In this document: piece by piece, positions 15,966 through 30,893 of the stretch
Position numbering within the stretch: position 1 is the stretch's first letter
Layout: every line of letters starts with the position of its first letter
NCBI GenBank assembly: GCA_002689655.1
Contig: NZHC01000015.1
Location: forward strand, 1 to 64,000
Direction: 5' to 3'
DNA: 64,000 nucleotides
Source of the DNA: Rhodopirellula sp.
GTDB taxonomy: Bacteria; Planctomycetota; Planctomycetia; Pirellulales; Pirellulaceae
Program-made: the position numbers and the translations under genes
The notes under the pieces: model-generated
What the model saw: the letters and a program-made list of their open reading frames with translations, nothing else
What the model was told of the DNA's origin: nothing
The model's database searches: none

Positions 15966-16910
15966 TTAGGCTTCTGGCGGAGTGGGAGGCGGTTCGAACG
16001 CGAACTCCTGCCACTTCACTGCTTTGTCCATCGGTTCGATTCGCATCACCAGATTTCCGTCTTGATAAAGTCTTACGGTACCGGTGGATTGGCTGACAAC
16101 GACAGAAATCGCTTTGGTTTTTCGCGTGATCGCCGCGGCTGCCCAGTGTCGTGCGCCCAGGCCTTTCGTCATGGTCAGGTCTTCATGTGAGACCTCCAGC
16201 ATTTGCCGACTGCGTTCGATGATTCCATCGCTGCCAATCAGAAACGCACCGTCGAGTTGTGCGATTTCCTTGGCATCTTCTTGAACACGGGCATCCAGCA
16301 GGTTCCGGTGCTTCTTGTTGTAGCCACGAAAGGGATCGACACCACTGTCATTGGAATGTTCGAGAACCTTGCGGGTATCACCAACGACGAATAAGGTGCC
16401 CACGGCTTTACCCTCGCGACCCTCACGTCCAATTTGGGCTGCCAAATCAACGACCACCTTGATCGTCTGCAATGGAACGCGGCTCTCGAGCATCTGCAGG
16501 TCACGGCTGGTCAGTCGCCGCATGCGCTCATCAAGCTGCAAGTGGCTGATGGAATCGAGTCGATTCTGTTGGAAACCGCGATAGACCGCTACCACTTCTC
16601 CGTTGGTGCGGATCAACTCGTCCGCAGCAGCTTCCAGCAATGCATGCTGTAGGCGTTCAAGAAGTGGAGCTTTTTCTTTGTTGAGGACTACCGTTTTCAG
16701 GCCAGCTTCCGAGGCACCCTCAAGATCTTCCTGAGAATCCAAGGCGACAATGACTGGCTTGCTCATCTCGCTGGTCAGCTCGACAATTCGCTTCCAATCA
16801 GTTGATCCATCCAGAAGAATGAGCAATGCATCCGCGTTCCGCGCCTGAAGCAACGCTATGGCTGAAGAAACCATCGCGGAGTTGTGTTTGGTCAGTCGTT
16901 GCGTTGCCAT
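15966..16910 (-). CDS. Diadenylate-cyclase (DAC) domain protein
   Basis: This is a 314-residue soluble protein. Residues about 205-295 match the DisA_N/DAC domain, which makes c-di-AMP from two ATP. The DGA motif is intact at 220-222 (LDGAFLIGSDG). The nucleotide-binding RHR motif reads RHW (GARHWAAAA, 252-260), so one normally conserved Arg is Trp. Residues 1-100 form a separate alpha/beta-looking domain (possibly sensory), and 105-200 a linker containing GREGREGKAVGTLFVVGD. There are no membrane segments, unlike CdaA, and no helix-hairpin-helix DNA-binding region, unlike DisA. It ends in a proline-rich tail. It is a stand-alone gene on the minus strand. Confidence 0.75.
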   Translation of the reverse strand: MATQRLTKHNSAMVSSAIALLQARNADALLILLDGSTDWKRIVELTSEMSKPVIVALDSQEDLEGASEAGLKTVVLNKEKAPLLERLQHALLEAAADELIRTNGEVVAVYRGFQQNRLDSISHLQLDERMRRLTSRDLQMLESRVPLQTIKVVVDLAAQIGREGREGKAVGTLFVVGDTRKVLEHSNDSGVDPFRGYNKKHRNLLDARVQEDAKEIAQLDGAFLIGSDGIIERSRQMLEVSHEDLTMTKGLGARHWAAAAITRKTKAISVVVSQSTGTVRLYQDGNLVMRIEPMDKAVKWQEFAFEPPPTPPEA

Positions 16911-25763: not shown

Positions 25764-25874
25764 TGATAGAAGGGTCCGATGGATGGAGATTCGACTGGCT
25801 TGGGCGTCCGCCCAACTCTCTGGACGATCCTCTATTATACGTGGTGGATAGATTTGTCCCACCTCCCGCCTATC

Positions 25875-27077
25875 ATGAAAACCCGCTCCATGCCCTACAG
25901 ACCCAACCTTTTAGCTGGAAGTTTCACTCTCGGGACTCTGGTAGTGATTCTCACTTTCGCCACGTCAGGCAGCACTTTGGCATCCAATGGGGCAGATGCT
26001 CAAGTTCAGGAAGACACAGCGACGCAGGACACAGCGACGCAGGACACAGCGACGAAAAATACAACCAACGACACTTCAGCCCAACCGCAGCTAGCACTCA
26101 AGGCTACCGAAGATTCCAGCGAGGCTGCTGCCGGCAGCCGAAACTCAATGTCCGTCAAACGAATACGAGTGGAGCAAGATCAGCGATTCAGTGAACAGAA
26201 AGGCAAGGCCGGGCTTTGTGATATCTATTTCCCTGCCTCAGATCCACCGGAGAATGGTTACCCAGTCGTAATTGTGGTTCACGGAGGCGGCTGGGCCGCT
26301 GGCGATAAGTGGACAATCGCTACTTACTCCAGACTATTGGCTCAAGAAGGCGTCATGGCTGTAACGATCAACTACCGTTTGGCGCCAACTCATAAGTTTC
26401 CGGCACAGGTGGATGACGTACGCTCGGCAATGGTTTGGGTACACCAGAATGCTCAAAGACTCAAATTGAACTTAAAGCAGGTCGGCTTATTTGGTTATTC
26501 CGCTGGTGGTCACCTGTCGGCATTAGTGGCTTCTCTGGCAGATGAAACCATGGTGGTCAGGGCGGCAGCCAGTAACTGGCCAATTGCAGATGTAAGGTGG
26601 AAGCAGCTACCAAAAATTTGCGCTGTTTGTGCGGGAGGGCCTCCCTGTGACTTTCGATCGCTTCCGATCGATAATACTGCCATGGCGTATTTTCTGGGTG
26701 GCTCCCGGAGGAAAAAACCAGAAGCCTACATTGCGGCGTCGCCTGCTGCCCATGTGTCGGCCGATGATCCGGTAACCCAATTGTTTCATGGAGAGGGCGA
26801 TGCTCTGGTGCCTCTGGCGGGTACGAGAGATTTTCACGAGGCACAAGTCAAGGCTGGAATCGATAGCCGTCTTGCAGTGATTCCCAAACAGGGGCACATG
26901 CTGACTTTTATAAGCCCCACTACCTATCAAACCGTGGCGAGCTTTTTTCGTGACGTGTTCCCACAGCCCAGTGTCCCACAGCCCAGTGTCCCACAGCCCA
27001 GTGTCCCACAGCCCAGTGTCCCACAACAGCCCAGTGTCCCACAGCCCAGTGTCCCACAGCCCGTGCCCGGACCGTAA
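25875..27077 (+). CDS. Secreted alpha/beta-hydrolase (BD-FAE/carboxylesterase-like) with repeat tail
   Basis: This is a 400-residue exported esterase. The ATG at 25875 begins a signal region (LLAGSFTLGTLVVILTFATSG). The catalytic domain has the oxyanion motif HGGGWAAGDK, nucleophile elbow GYSAGGH, a GEGDALVP acidic loop and a KQGHML histidine, so the triad is complete. It resembles acetyl-xylan or feruloyl-type esterases, often used on polysaccharide side groups. Two tandem repeats lie inside the frame: DTATQ/DTATK near the N-terminus and VPQPS repeated at the C-terminus, ending VPGP. The proline-rich tail could be a wall or matrix anchor. Substrate inferred only. Confidence 0.85.
   Translation: MKTRSMPYRPNLLAGSFTLGTLVVILTFATSGSTLASNGADAQVQEDTATQDTATQDTATKNTTNDTSAQPQLALKATEDSSEAAAGSRNSMSVKRIRVEQDQRFSEQKGKAGLCDIYFPASDPPENGYPVVIVVHGGGWAAGDKWTIATYSRLLAQEGVMAVTINYRLAPTHKFPAQVDDVRSAMVWVHQNAQRLKLNLKQVGLFGYSAGGHLSALVASLADETMVVRAAASNWPIADVRWKQLPKICAVCAGGPPCDFRSLPIDNTAMAYFLGGSRRKKPEAYIAASPAAHVSADDPVTQLFHGEGDALVPLAGTRDFHEAQVKAGIDSRLAVIPKQGHMLTFISPTTYQTVASFFRDVFPQPSVPQPSVPQPSVPQPSVPQQPSVPQPSVPQPVPGP
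26013..26057 (+). repeat. 15-bp coding repeat (DTATQ), three copies
   Basis: Three units of gacacagcgacgcag (the last ends in aaa) lie in frame in the linker after the signal peptide of the esterase, giving DTATQ DTATQ DTATK. Copy number can change without frameshift because the period is 15 bp. Confidence 0.9.
26960..27067 (+). repeat. 15-bp coding repeat (VPQPS), about six copies
   Basis: Units of cccacagcccagtgt repeat from 26960. The fifth unit carries a 3-bp insertion (cccacaacagcccagtgt), and the array decays into cccacagcccgtg at the stop end. It encodes a proline/glutamine-rich C-terminal tail on the secreted esterase. The in-frame period and the in-frame 3-bp insertion suggest selection to stay open. 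Confidence 0.95.
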
Positions 27078-27969: not shown

Positions 27970-28221
27970 CTAGGTGATTACTGATTGCATCTGGTGTTGC
28001 GATGTAATCATGAACAACAAAGTTACAATCAACGTGATCGTTGTAACCAGCGACGAATGAGGAGGGCGTCCGTACTCGTGAGCCGGCGGTAGTTGCAGGA
28101 TTTCTTGTCGCATTTTTTGTACCAGCTCTTTCTTTACAGTTGGGCGTATCAGAGTTTGTGGTTCGTCTGTTGCATCTCTATCCGGCAAGCCGAAAGGCCA
28201 AGAAACTGTGAATAAGCCCAC
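27970..28221 (-). CDS. Small tail-anchored protein of the redox module
   Basis: This is an 83-residue protein with a GTG start that overlaps the end of the cytochrome-b-like gene by 44 bp. A charged N-terminal part is followed by one C-terminal membrane segment (TTITLIVTLLFMITSQ). There is no heme or cluster motif. An ATG at 28113 would give a 47-residue form that still contains the membrane segment, and neither start has a strong ribosome-binding site. Its tight position suggests it belongs with the two upstream genes, perhaps as an assembly or anchoring subunit. Family not recognised. Confidence 0.5.
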   Translation of the reverse strand: MGLFTVSWPFGLPDRDATDEPQTLIRPTVKKELVQKMRQEILQLPPAHEYGRPPHSSLVTTITLIVTLLFMITSQHQMQSVIT

Positions 28222-28999
28222 CTGTGACCAGTGCCAGTGTCAAAATGCTATGAAAAGTGACCCACAACCGCAGTCGCAGTTGTAAAGCGAATTGGTAATC
28301 CAGATCATCTCTTTGCTGTATCAGCTCAGCGAATCTTTCAGCCATTCCTCGACCCTCGCTTTCGAGATGCCGCTCCAAGTCCTTCAGGTCACTTAGCAAT
28401 TTTCGTCGTCGTCCGCCGGTGGGTACTAGCACATAAGTCAGGGAGGGGCGTGAGTTGAAAAAGGGGTTCAAGTGTTGTGTGTAGAAACTGTCGAGAACCG
28501 GTATGCCGACATGCACACTGAGTTCTTCAAGTAGCTTTCTTGCGTGATCTGCAATTTGTTCACGATCCCACTTGACTCGGTCAAAGTGGTGTTGTCCCTC
28601 GACAGCAGTTAGCAGCTTTGGCACGGTGCGCGAGGCATGCAGTCCATAGAAACCGCTACCGGTAACCAGCAAGAAAACGAGCGACAGTGGCAGCTCGAAA
28701 ATACCACTTCCGAGCAGGTGCGGCACATGCATCCAATAGACACCGGTCGTGAAGAATCCCATGTAGATATGCACTTGAGTCCATGTGCTCATGCTACCCA
28801 AGGGCAGAATCGGTATGCGACGACGCATGCCGAATAATGCCAGCAGAATAATGCAGCAAAGAAGCGTTGCACCCGTCAACATGGCGACGTTCGCCAACCG
28901 AACCGTTTGGATCAAGACAATGCCAAGCATCACCAACATCGCAACCAACGTCAGTGCGATGGCGATAAAGCGACGTTGACGAAACGAAAAAAGGGGCAT
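28178..28999 (-). CDS. Membrane b-type cytochrome-like subunit with two H-x13-H pairs
   Basis: This is a 273-residue protein with about five membrane segments (near 12-30, 38-57, 75-92, 102-120 and 245-268) and a cytoplasmic-looking charged loop at 125-240. Two helices carry histidine pairs 14 residues apart: His77/His91 (VHIYMGFFTTGVYWMH) and His250/His264 (FHSILTLALVTGGLIH). That spacing is the classic arrangement for two stacked b hemes in ferric reductase/NOX and related cytochromes, so it is probably a diheme transmembrane electron conduit. The start lies 4 bp after the stop of the CNB/Fe-S gene, and the end overlaps the small tail-anchored gene. Confidence 0.75.
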   Translation of the reverse strand: MPLFSFRQRRFIAIALTLVAMLVMLGIVLIQTVRLANVAMLTGATLLCCIILLALFGMRRRIPILPLGSMSTWTQVHIYMGFFTTGVYWMHVPHLLGSGIFELPLSLVFLLVTGSGFYGLHASRTVPKLLTAVEGQHHFDRVKWDREQIADHARKLLEELSVHVGIPVLDSFYTQHLNPFFNSRPSLTYVLVPTGGRRRKLLSDLKDLERHLESEGRGMAERFAELIQQRDDLDYQFALQLRLRLWVTFHSILTLALVTGGLIHSFLAFRLAG

Positions 29000-29003
29000 G
29001 CAT

Positions 29004-30893
29004 CTAGCTCCGTAGGTCGAGCCACTCTTTCAGTGATTTAGACTCACTTAGATCAATTCGGACAAGAGCGTCATGAGAGCAGGCTGCAACGCATGCCGGT
29101 CCGGATGGAAGTTTGCTGCACATGTCGCATTTGGTCGCTTTTGCGATTGGCAAATCCGTAGTCGCGTCCCTGTAGGGACGGCCGTGGTGATCAGATACCT
29201 CCGTCATTCGGATGTTTTGATAAGGGCAGGCAGCGGCGCATGTACCACAACCGACACAAATGGCTTCATGAATCTGGATAAGTCCAGCTTCGTCTCGAGT
29301 GATGGATCCCGTGGGGCACCCTATCATGCAAACAGGGTCACTACACTGCATGCAAGCTTCCACAACCTGCAAGCGGTCATGGGCTAACCCCTGCCGGACA
29401 AAGCGCGGATTGCCATCATGCGCATTGCTACAGGCTTTGACGCAATCATCGCAGCGAGTGCAGCGATGAAGATCGATTACCATGGCTTGGCGTCCATTGT
29501 TCAGGCGATTTTGAACAATGAAGTCCAATAATGCGGTTTGCTGGATTTGTTGACCTTTCTCACTCGCGGTTTTTGCATTGTCTGCATCTGCCGTATTTTG
29601 CTTCCGCGTATTCGGCAGTCGATCCGCGACCATTTCTGTTCGCTGTTGTGCTGACTGCAACAATAGCCTTGCTGCCTTTGGGGGCAACTCTGTTCTACGC
29701 ACATGGGGCAAAATTTCAGCTGCAAAAGTTTCCACTGGTATGAATAAGGTATCCAGAAATCCGACAGCTCGTAGTGTGTTCTGCAAGCTCATGATGGGAG
29801 TGTTGGACGGTCGTAAACTGTTGTAGGACAATTCTTCCAATCCGAAGACATGCCCCTTCCCGAGATAAGCTGTAGTGCGGTGTCTGCCCCCATCCTGTTG
29901 GGACAGTCTGCCGAATCCGCTTCGTACAAGCACCAGTTCGGTAGGAACACGACCCGCTTCACATACTACTGGTTCAGACTCCATTTGCTGGGCAACGGGG
30001 AGGGTACGTGTGTGGTGGTAATCCGCGTTCCATTCCAGACGACCAAAGGAATGCATTTGGGTTGCCTGTGCGACTCGCTGTAAACTTGCCTCCGGTAGGT
30101 CACGTAGCAACGGAACTTCACTGAGATGAATATTGAGCCAATGTGTTCGGTAATGTTGTTCCAGGCTGGTTGCGAAACGCTTATCTCGTCTCAGGACGTG
30201 AAGCCCCTGCCAGCGGATTTCAAGCAGGGTTGCTTCGGTGGCAGCGATGACGGTGGCCGTCCGTGGGGATCGGTACATAGCTGCCACTTCACCAAACAGT
30301 TCACCGGGCCCCAGTTCCGCACTCGAGCAATCTCTTAAAACGGCATTGAAGTCCTGCAGGAAAATCGCGGGACGATCGTCAATCTGACGGATCGAACTGC
30401 TGGAAGCTTCTGAATCGGTCGTGGTCGTCACTTCCTCGAGCGAGCGTGCTTCGGTCACTCCAGAGCGACGGAGATATGAGCGAATTGCCTGAAGCCATGA
30501 AAGTTTCTTGGAGCTGGATCGTCCCAGTTGTCTGGGTGTCAGCGAGTCAATCATCGCATTAATACTGCCAGCGATGACCAAAAAAGCACTGTTGCCGTAA
30601 TCACCCTCTCGAGCAATGATCTCACCGGGCTCGCAGCGTTTAATTCGACAGTCGTTTCGAAGGATACCTTCCAGCGGTATCGAGCGAGGAAAAGCTTTGG
30701 CGTCCATGGTGGCAAATGGCTCACGAGAGCGCAGCCACAAAACGTCTGCATCGTCCATCGATGCGTCCATTGGTTTGCTCCATCTCTGAGGACGGCGCAC
30801 GGTGCTCGATCCTTTTACCTCCATGATGGTGTTTCGTACCGCGATTGTGCGACGAAGGTCAAGGTGAAACAGGGTTTTCGATCCAGCTGACAA
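29004..30893 (-). CDS. Cyclic-nucleotide-binding-like domains fused to four [4Fe-4S] motifs
   Basis: This is a 629-residue soluble protein. Residues about 73-235 form a CNB/CRP-like domain with the phosphate-binding cassette pattern GELFGEVAAMYRSPRTATV (197-215), including the phosphate Arg211, and a long insert at 120-190. Residues about 260-395 form a second, weaker CNB-like domain (GHVFGLEEL near 347-355). Residues 470-610 hold four cluster motifs: Cys478/481/484/488, Cys514/517/522/526, Cys546/549/552/556 and Cys589/592/601/605, as in DmsB/HycB-type electron-transfer subunits. The start is uncertain (ATG codons 24 and 42 are alternatives). First gene of a three-gene operon; a ligand-sensing electron carrier feeding the membrane cytochrome is the likely role. 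Confidence 0.8.
   Translation of the reverse strand: MSAGSKTLFHLDLRRTIAVRNTIMEVKGSSTVRRPQRWSKPMDASMDDADVLWLRSREPFATMDAKAFPRSIPLEGILRNDCRIKRCEPGEIIAREGDYGNSAFLVIAGSINAMIDSLTPRQLGRSSSKKLSWLQAIRSYLRRSGVTEARSLEEVTTTTDSEASSSSIRQIDDRPAIFLQDFNAVLRDCSSAELGPGELFGEVAAMYRSPRTATVIAATEATLLEIRWQGLHVLRRDKRFATSLEQHYRTHWLNIHLSEVPLLRDLPEASLQRVAQATQMHSFGRLEWNADYHHTRTLPVAQQMESEPVVCEAGRVPTELVLVRSGFGRLSQQDGGRHRTTAYLGKGHVFGLEELSYNSLRPSNTPIMSLQNTLRAVGFLDTLFIPVETFAAEILPHVRRTELPPKAARLLLQSAQQRTEMVADRLPNTRKQNTADADNAKTASEKGQQIQQTALLDFIVQNRLNNGRQAMVIDLHRCTRCDDCVKACSNAHDGNPRFVRQGLAHDRLQVVEACMQCSDPVCMIGCPTGSITRDEAGLIQIHEAICVGCGTCAAACPYQNIRMTEVSDHHGRPYRDATTDLPIAKATKCDMCSKLPSGPACVAACSHDALVRIDLSESKSLKEWLDLRS

Follow-up and report, generated by a model that had tools for sequence, protein, structure and literature searches.

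Described electron-transfer systems of the Hmc/Tmc, CbcL and NOX types each have part of the plan of the gene module that we analyze here. A damaged example of this module lies on the minus strand at positions 27970-30893 of a 64,000-nucleotide stretch of Rhodopirellula sp. DNA (assembly GCA_002689655.1, contig NZHC01000015.1), to which we refer as the window. It consists of gene A, whose protein combines cyclic-nucleotide-binding (CNB) domains with a ferredoxin part, gene B, very probably a diheme cytochrome b gene, and a short third open reading frame (ORF) that is a remnant of gene C, a decaheme cytochrome c gene in relatives.

In the transmembrane proteins of NOX and ferric reductases (PF01794), H-x13-H on two helices holds two b hemes. 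The protein of gene B resembles them in having two H-x13-H pairs on two helices, and in one relative (locus L142) it is fused to an FAD/NAD reductase. It differs from them in its decaheme partner and in the lack of a fold match; the window protein has no Pfam match, and 12 of 78 relatives match the family weakly. HycB and DmsB are four-cluster ferredoxin subunits similar to the ferredoxin part of A, but in A this part is preceded by CNB domains and the gene stands beside a cytochrome b gene.

The Hmc, Tmc and Nhc complexes of sulfate reducers comprise a cytoplasmic iron-sulfur (Fe-S) protein, a membrane part and a periplasmic multiheme cytochrome c. They are described as thought to carry electrons across the membrane (PMC4215793). 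Our module, by comparison, has a CNB-bearing four-cluster protein, a diheme b protein with four invariant histidines and a ten-heme cytochrome, and A stays far below the NCBIfam equivalog cut-offs for HmcB (33.4 of 420 bits), QrcC (25.1 of 400) and DsrO (61.6 of 200). CbcL/MtrH/MtoC, ImcH and CymA are described as quinol-linked multiheme c proteins of extracellular electron transfer that sit in the inner membrane and join it to periplasmic cytochromes (PMC6295460). Unlike these, our module has separate b and c genes and a cytoplasmic Fe-S or flavin input, a contrast drawn from the description of CbcL. Judged by titles and the beginnings of abstracts, we found no description of a module of A, B and a decaheme gene in the openly available literature, a scope outside which most subscription papers fall.

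We consider it likely that A supplies the cytoplasmic part and B the membrane part of a conduit for electrons across the membrane, and that the outer end of this conduit was ancestrally a decaheme cytochrome c anchored in the membrane. A deletion destroyed gene C in the lineage of the window. An electron conduit had already been proposed in an earlier note on this DNA. The proposal gains from invariant ligands, a shared A-B gene order, fusion of A to B, and, in relatives, from flavoprotein reductases and decaheme cytochromes that are fused or linked to the module.

The genes of the locus

The genome of the window (G000; 7.1 Mb in 156 contigs, 99.95% complete, 3.7% contamination) has its nearest matches in the open genome collection among genomes labeled Rhodopirellula, Rubripirellula and Planctomycetaceae. 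As first read, the three minus-strand ORFs are tightly spaced: A and B are separated by 4 base pairs (bp), B and the third ORF overlap by 44 bp, and all coordinates were verified. No molybdenum enzyme or hydrogenase gene was found among the scanned neighbors of A and B.

Gene B (28178..28999, minus strand) encodes 273 amino acids with helices at residues 6-33, 38-61, 70-91, 102-131 and 214-272. Its predicted heme ligands form two spaced histidine pairs on two helices, H77-x13-H91 and H250-x13-H264. Of the homologs with sufficient coverage, 96 for B and 57 for A, a 92% identity filter left 79 and 44 rows for the alignments. His77 (codon 28769..28771) and His91 (28727..28729) are invariant in all 79 B homologs, and His250 (28250..28252) and His264 (28208..28210), all on the minus strand, in the 77 that reach that far, at identities down to 18%. 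An AlphaFold model built with 78 sequences (mean pLDDT 94.5) places His77 and His91 on helix 70-91, and His250 and His264 on helix 214-272. Taken together, sequence and model suggest that gene B very probably encodes a diheme cytochrome b. From the topology we infer that His77 and His250 lie on the cytoplasmic side and His91 and His264 on the outer side. The relatives of B (78 of the 79 rows, alignment A1, the broken L038 being omitted) weakly match DUF4405 (27/78), Ferric_reduct (12/78) and Ni_hydr_CYTB (8/78), with best E values of 1.4e-4 to 2.9e-4 (2.9e-4 for Ferric_reduct); window B itself is unmatched by the PF01794 profile. The two H-x13-H pairs of the earlier note are present and invariant, and its assignment to the ferric reductase/NOX kind is plausible, with weak family matches in relatives and none in the window protein. 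A joint alignment of A and B (A2) misplaced the first half of the B rows and was dropped in favor of a third one (A3).

Gene A (29004..30893, minus strand) encodes 629 amino acids from a TTG start; many homologs start at the equivalent of residue 24 (30824). The protein scores 69.2 bits against the Pfam family cNMP_binding (PF00027), above the curated cut-off of 27.5. The first CNB domain (residues 76-232, 30198..30668, minus strand) is interrupted by an insert: the best PF00027 stretch covers residues 192-232, and phmmer finds it in two pieces, 76-125 and 182-232. Its phosphate cassette has FGE at residues 200-202 and Arg211, located in FGEVAAMYRSPRTAT. A second CNB-like domain with a degenerate cassette has approximate limits at residues 307-390 (29724..29975, minus strand) in the alignment of 44 A homologs. 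The ferredoxin part (residues 478-605, 29079..29462, minus strand) contains 16 cluster cysteines in four Cys4 sites, each conserved in 44/44 rows; these rows exclude divergent A proteins (L068-L074 and others), to which the counts for the cysteines and for Arg211 do not apply. Several 4Fe-4S Pfam families score above their cut-offs, and by sequence the ferredoxin part is HycB-like (best PDB match HycB3, 7qv7_A, E 5.6e-14); the A relative of locus L063 has a HycB-like ferredoxin fold match (E 1.5e-6). Pfam and the alignment agree with what had been read from the letters of gene A: a CNB-like domain with Arg211, a second CNB-like domain and four Cys4 sites. Across both genes, profile searches bore out the CNB and 4Fe-4S families in A but not a cytochrome b family in B.

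The third ORF was first taken for a tail-anchored protein, and this is where the earlier note was wrong. Its GTG start falls within gene B. Codon 37 (window 28113) begins the sequence MRQEILQLPP, after which the ORF passes directly into the membrane helix of a decaheme cytochrome. It matches residues 54-87 of the 722-amino-acid decaheme protein of locus L032 (E 0.005, 50% identity), and a local tblastn comparison gives 59% identity across 29 residues. There is no cysteine and no CxxCH motif in the ORF. In a DNA alignment the start of C (MRQEILQLPP) and the helix are kept, while the stretch between them and everything downstream are deleted. We found no second decaheme copy in G000: searched with the L032 protein at E <= 1, the whole genome matched at 27976-28077 only, which is the membrane helix. 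Genome G298 carries the same deletion, with 282 bp from B to the next gene in both genomes, and its remnant has lost the start codon and is frameshifted within the helix. The short peptide is therefore not conserved, and a conserved small subunit could be ruled out. These alignments identify the third ORF, once its spurious upstream part is set aside (remnant at 27970..28113, minus strand, with start codons and membrane helix and without a heme motif), as what erosion has left of a decaheme cytochrome c gene, namely its start and its membrane helix. It is a cautionary case: what looks like a small ORF next to conserved genes may be all that is left of a far larger partner.

The module in relatives

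In loci L032 and L033, where A shares 82% and 80% identity with window A, the arrangement is intact: after B comes a gene for a cytochrome c (722 and 712 amino acids) with a membrane anchor and ten CxxCH motifs. We surveyed this arrangement more widely in two samples, neither of which used gene C as a query, counting as multiheme any ORF with at least four CxxCH. For sample (i), B was searched against 294 genomes of the phylum; 47 genomes have B, and the 50 matches listed comprise the window, 40 fetched loci and nine unfetched ones. Sample (ii) comes from a search of genome contigs with A, which gave 45 loci, 34 of them outside the genus and 32 of these with B. A multiheme ORF lies directly downstream of B in 39 of the 40 fetched loci of sample (i), with exactly ten motifs in 35; the exception, L146, has a 13-motif ORF elsewhere in the locus. 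Outside the genus, in sample (ii), such an ORF follows B in 31/32 loci (ten motifs in 28), and in the remaining locus, L062, the contig ends within B. The position of A upstream of B is true by construction in sample (ii), where A was the query. In sample (i), where loci were found by B alone, A lies directly upstream of B in 30/40. A survey of the three-gene order had been named beforehand as a test of the original proposal; it found the A-B order conserved, but the third ORF alone not conserved in relatives.

A and B form a single ORF in the Oceanospirillum loci L063 and L067. A structure model of the Fe-S and B parts of L063 reached a pLDDT of 84.1. Relatives of a tetraheme C554-type cytochrome occur in 18 of the 40 loci of sample (i) and relatives of an NAD/FAD/2Fe-2S reductase in 10, mostly upstream of A. 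L069, L072 and L074 have A fused to a TrxR-like FAD domain; in L142 B is fused to an FHA-flavin-2Fe-2S reductase (FAD/NAD), and in L070 the decaheme protein to an FHA domain. Gene C of L063 matches Cytochrome_C7 (48.5 bits, cut-off 24.8). The common core appears to be B plus the decaheme cytochrome, with a cytoplasmic input that varies.

FHA joined to an FAD/NAD/2Fe-2S reductase was seen at L142:4058-6691 (minus strand), where it is also joined to B, and at L109:399-2015 (plus strand). At L145:2478-5791 (plus strand) an FAD/BFD reductase is fused to a weakly B-like part, and a separate cytochrome with ten CxxCH follows; here a similar wire has another input.

Loss of gene C and selection on A and B

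Within the genus, 16 of 22 genomes have A and B and six have no match to A or B, some of these being incomplete assemblies. Gene C retains its ten motifs in eight of the 16. All three genes are broken in G306, and C of G307 is riddled with stops. C of G308 reads open as far as the contig edge, and A of this genome is interrupted by an in-frame stop. Several of the genus genomes are metagenome assemblies, in which single stops may be errors, but the deletion shared by G000 and G298 is hard to explain that way. G000, G298, G300, G310 and G311 retain scraps of C or no detectable trace of it. These five genomes form one clade with moderate support (96.1/87 for DNA, 84.6/77 for protein), in a tree for which G310 and G311 contain only part of A. 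Because of this grouping, one ancestral loss of C followed by erosion, with separate damage in G306 and G307, is the simplest history. Separate losses in G300, G310 and G311, considered on account of their differing remnants, were dropped, as the tree groups these genomes with the window.

A second relative of A, 33-36% identical, is present in G295, G296, G305, G307 and G308, and none was found in the window genome at E <= 1e-40.

What has happened to A and B since the loss? One could argue that they are a decaying relic, useless without C and merely not yet broken. The broken genes of G306, the stop in A of G308 and the six genomes without a match would all fit, and so does the pace of change. 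With five neighboring genes as relative-rate controls (ribBA and a fast esterase gene were left out), the nonsynonymous divergence (dN) of A and B relative to the neighbors is 1.56-2.01 in three pairs of genomes without C. The intact pair G299-G301, the only such pair used and one in which synonymous divergence (dS) is near saturation, has corresponding values of 0.63 and 0.53. A and B hence evolve 2.5-3.8 times faster relative to their neighbors than in the intact pair (two pairs tested; ratios of at most 1 in 0/500 bootstraps).

Despite this, three observations make a mere relic somewhat doubtful, although we regard it as a serious possibility. First, at a dS of ~0.5 the comparison of G000 with G298, which inherited a common deletion, yields dN/dS values of 0.168 (A) and 0.177 (B); seven neighboring genes, ribBA and the esterase gene among them, range from 0.044 to 0.307 in the same comparison. 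Second, all 20 predicted ligands of A and B have been retained after the loss of C. Third, in simulations of neutral drift at 0.2 substitutions per site, A and B together accumulate ~15 stops, and at least seven in each of 300 runs. As to any clustering of changes on the outer side of B, the picture is mixed: two of the outer stretches have shares of 0.50 and 0.55 of sites, the third has 0.21 and the cytoplasmic domain 0.38. It would seem that the loss of C relieved A and B of some of their constraint; they are still under selection, which is relaxed but purifying. Most likely, the window proteins either pass electrons to another acceptor or are heading to loss.

One gene near the locus, at 25779-27077 on the plus strand, encodes an esterase (BD-FAE/alpha-beta hydrolase) whose C-terminus carries a series of QPSVP repeats, and has a high dN/dS of 0.31 against G298.

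Discussion

If A and B form a conduit with the decaheme cytochrome, as we think likely, a cytoplasmic donor, either an NAD(P)H-flavoprotein or a ferredoxin, would reduce the four Fe-S clusters of A. From these clusters electrons would move to the inner b heme of B, held by His77 and His250, and on to the outer b heme, held by His91 and His264. In intact relatives the outer heme would then reduce the decaheme cytochrome c and, through it, further periplasmic cytochromes. Without C, the lineage of the window would have a wire that stops at the outer b heme of B, from which iron, oxygen or a soluble cytochrome might be reduced. For the CNB domains of A an accessory role, either regulatory or structural, is probable.

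A number of observations weigh against this reading. On the side of the input, there is no donor gene beside A within the window, and when G000 was searched for replacements of the relatives' partner genes, the reductase and tetraheme cytochrome gave only partial matches on other contigs (26% identity, E 1e-13, and 29%, E 1e-4). Ten of the 40 loci of sample (i) are without A directly upstream of B, so A is not the sole input. The window protein of gene B has no Pfam or NCBIfam match of note and is unmatched by heme b families, and unrelated families match its relatives about as weakly as DUF4405, Ferric_reduct and Ni_hydr_CYTB do (EPS_sugtrans, 7/78). Among solved structures, B has no Foldseek match at E <= 0.001 and no profile match below E 0.3. 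Finally, the comparison that suggests relaxed selection leans on one intact pair.

Electrons could also run the other way. Transmembrane redox chains are reversible in principle, and periplasmic or extracellular electrons arriving through the decaheme cytochrome and B might reduce cytoplasmic carriers. Loci L063, L064, L067 and L074 would suit such an arrangement: they contain an additional pentaheme cytochrome and a protein without a Pfam match (cluster c16) that we suspect, from its C-terminus, to be a putative outer-membrane barrel. However, the fused or linked flavoproteins resemble NAD(P)H-oxidizing reductases by family, and we consider an inward wire unlikely.

Gating by a cyclic nucleotide was part of the earlier note's proposal, and it holds up less well than the conduit. 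The window protein has the FGE and Arg211 of an intact cassette, and FGE of the first cassette is invariant (44/44 A homologs). However, Arg211 is replaced in seven of the 44 homologs (R in 37, H in 5, Q in 1 and M in 1), and a canonical cassette is absent or degenerate in the second CNB domain of the aligned rows. Ligand gating is possible in window A and unlikely as a rule for the family. The full model of a nucleotide-gated conduit with a functional tail-anchored third subunit can draw on that cassette and on the one class III cyclase found in G000, yet it is highly improbable given the variable Arg211, the degenerate second cassette and a third subunit already refuted as a remnant of C that is not conserved in G298.

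A diadenylate cyclase (DAC, PF02457) domain is encoded at 16053-16430 on the minus strand, the sole one found in G000. It was the only basis for a suggested link to cyclic di-AMP (c-di-AMP). The suggestion is unsupported, and we rejected a tie to A and B, since the DAC gene is ~12 kb distant and no link was found.

More tentatively than for the conduit itself, and with some reservation, we suggest that the module belongs to a widespread superfamily in which a diheme b protein and a decaheme c protein are served by interchangeable inputs: CNB with four Fe-S clusters, FHA with flavin and 2Fe-2S, TrxR-like FAD with CNB and Fe-S, or FAD/BFD. CNB or FHA signaling domains might then set electron export, and the lineage of the window would amount to an experiment of nature: the outer wire is gone and the inner half has survived. 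If a conduit of this kind exists, planctomycetes and several other bacteria have an unnamed route by which electrons from the cytoplasm reach multiheme cytochromes on the outside of the membrane, and this would bear on electron export beyond the model genera. In the clade of the window, close species that have the outer wire can readily be compared with close species that lack it but retain the inner parts.

Two further neighbors of the module were seen in relatives. At L070:9907-11865 (plus strand; cluster c25, also in L069 and L071) a lipoprotein-like ORF of the HbpS-like, heme-degrading family comes right after the gene that joins FHA to the decaheme cytochrome. On a Nitrospinota contig, at L068:166-1557 (plus strand), a glutamate-synthase-domain protein with 4Fe-4S clusters is encoded directly before A, B and a nine-heme cytochrome.

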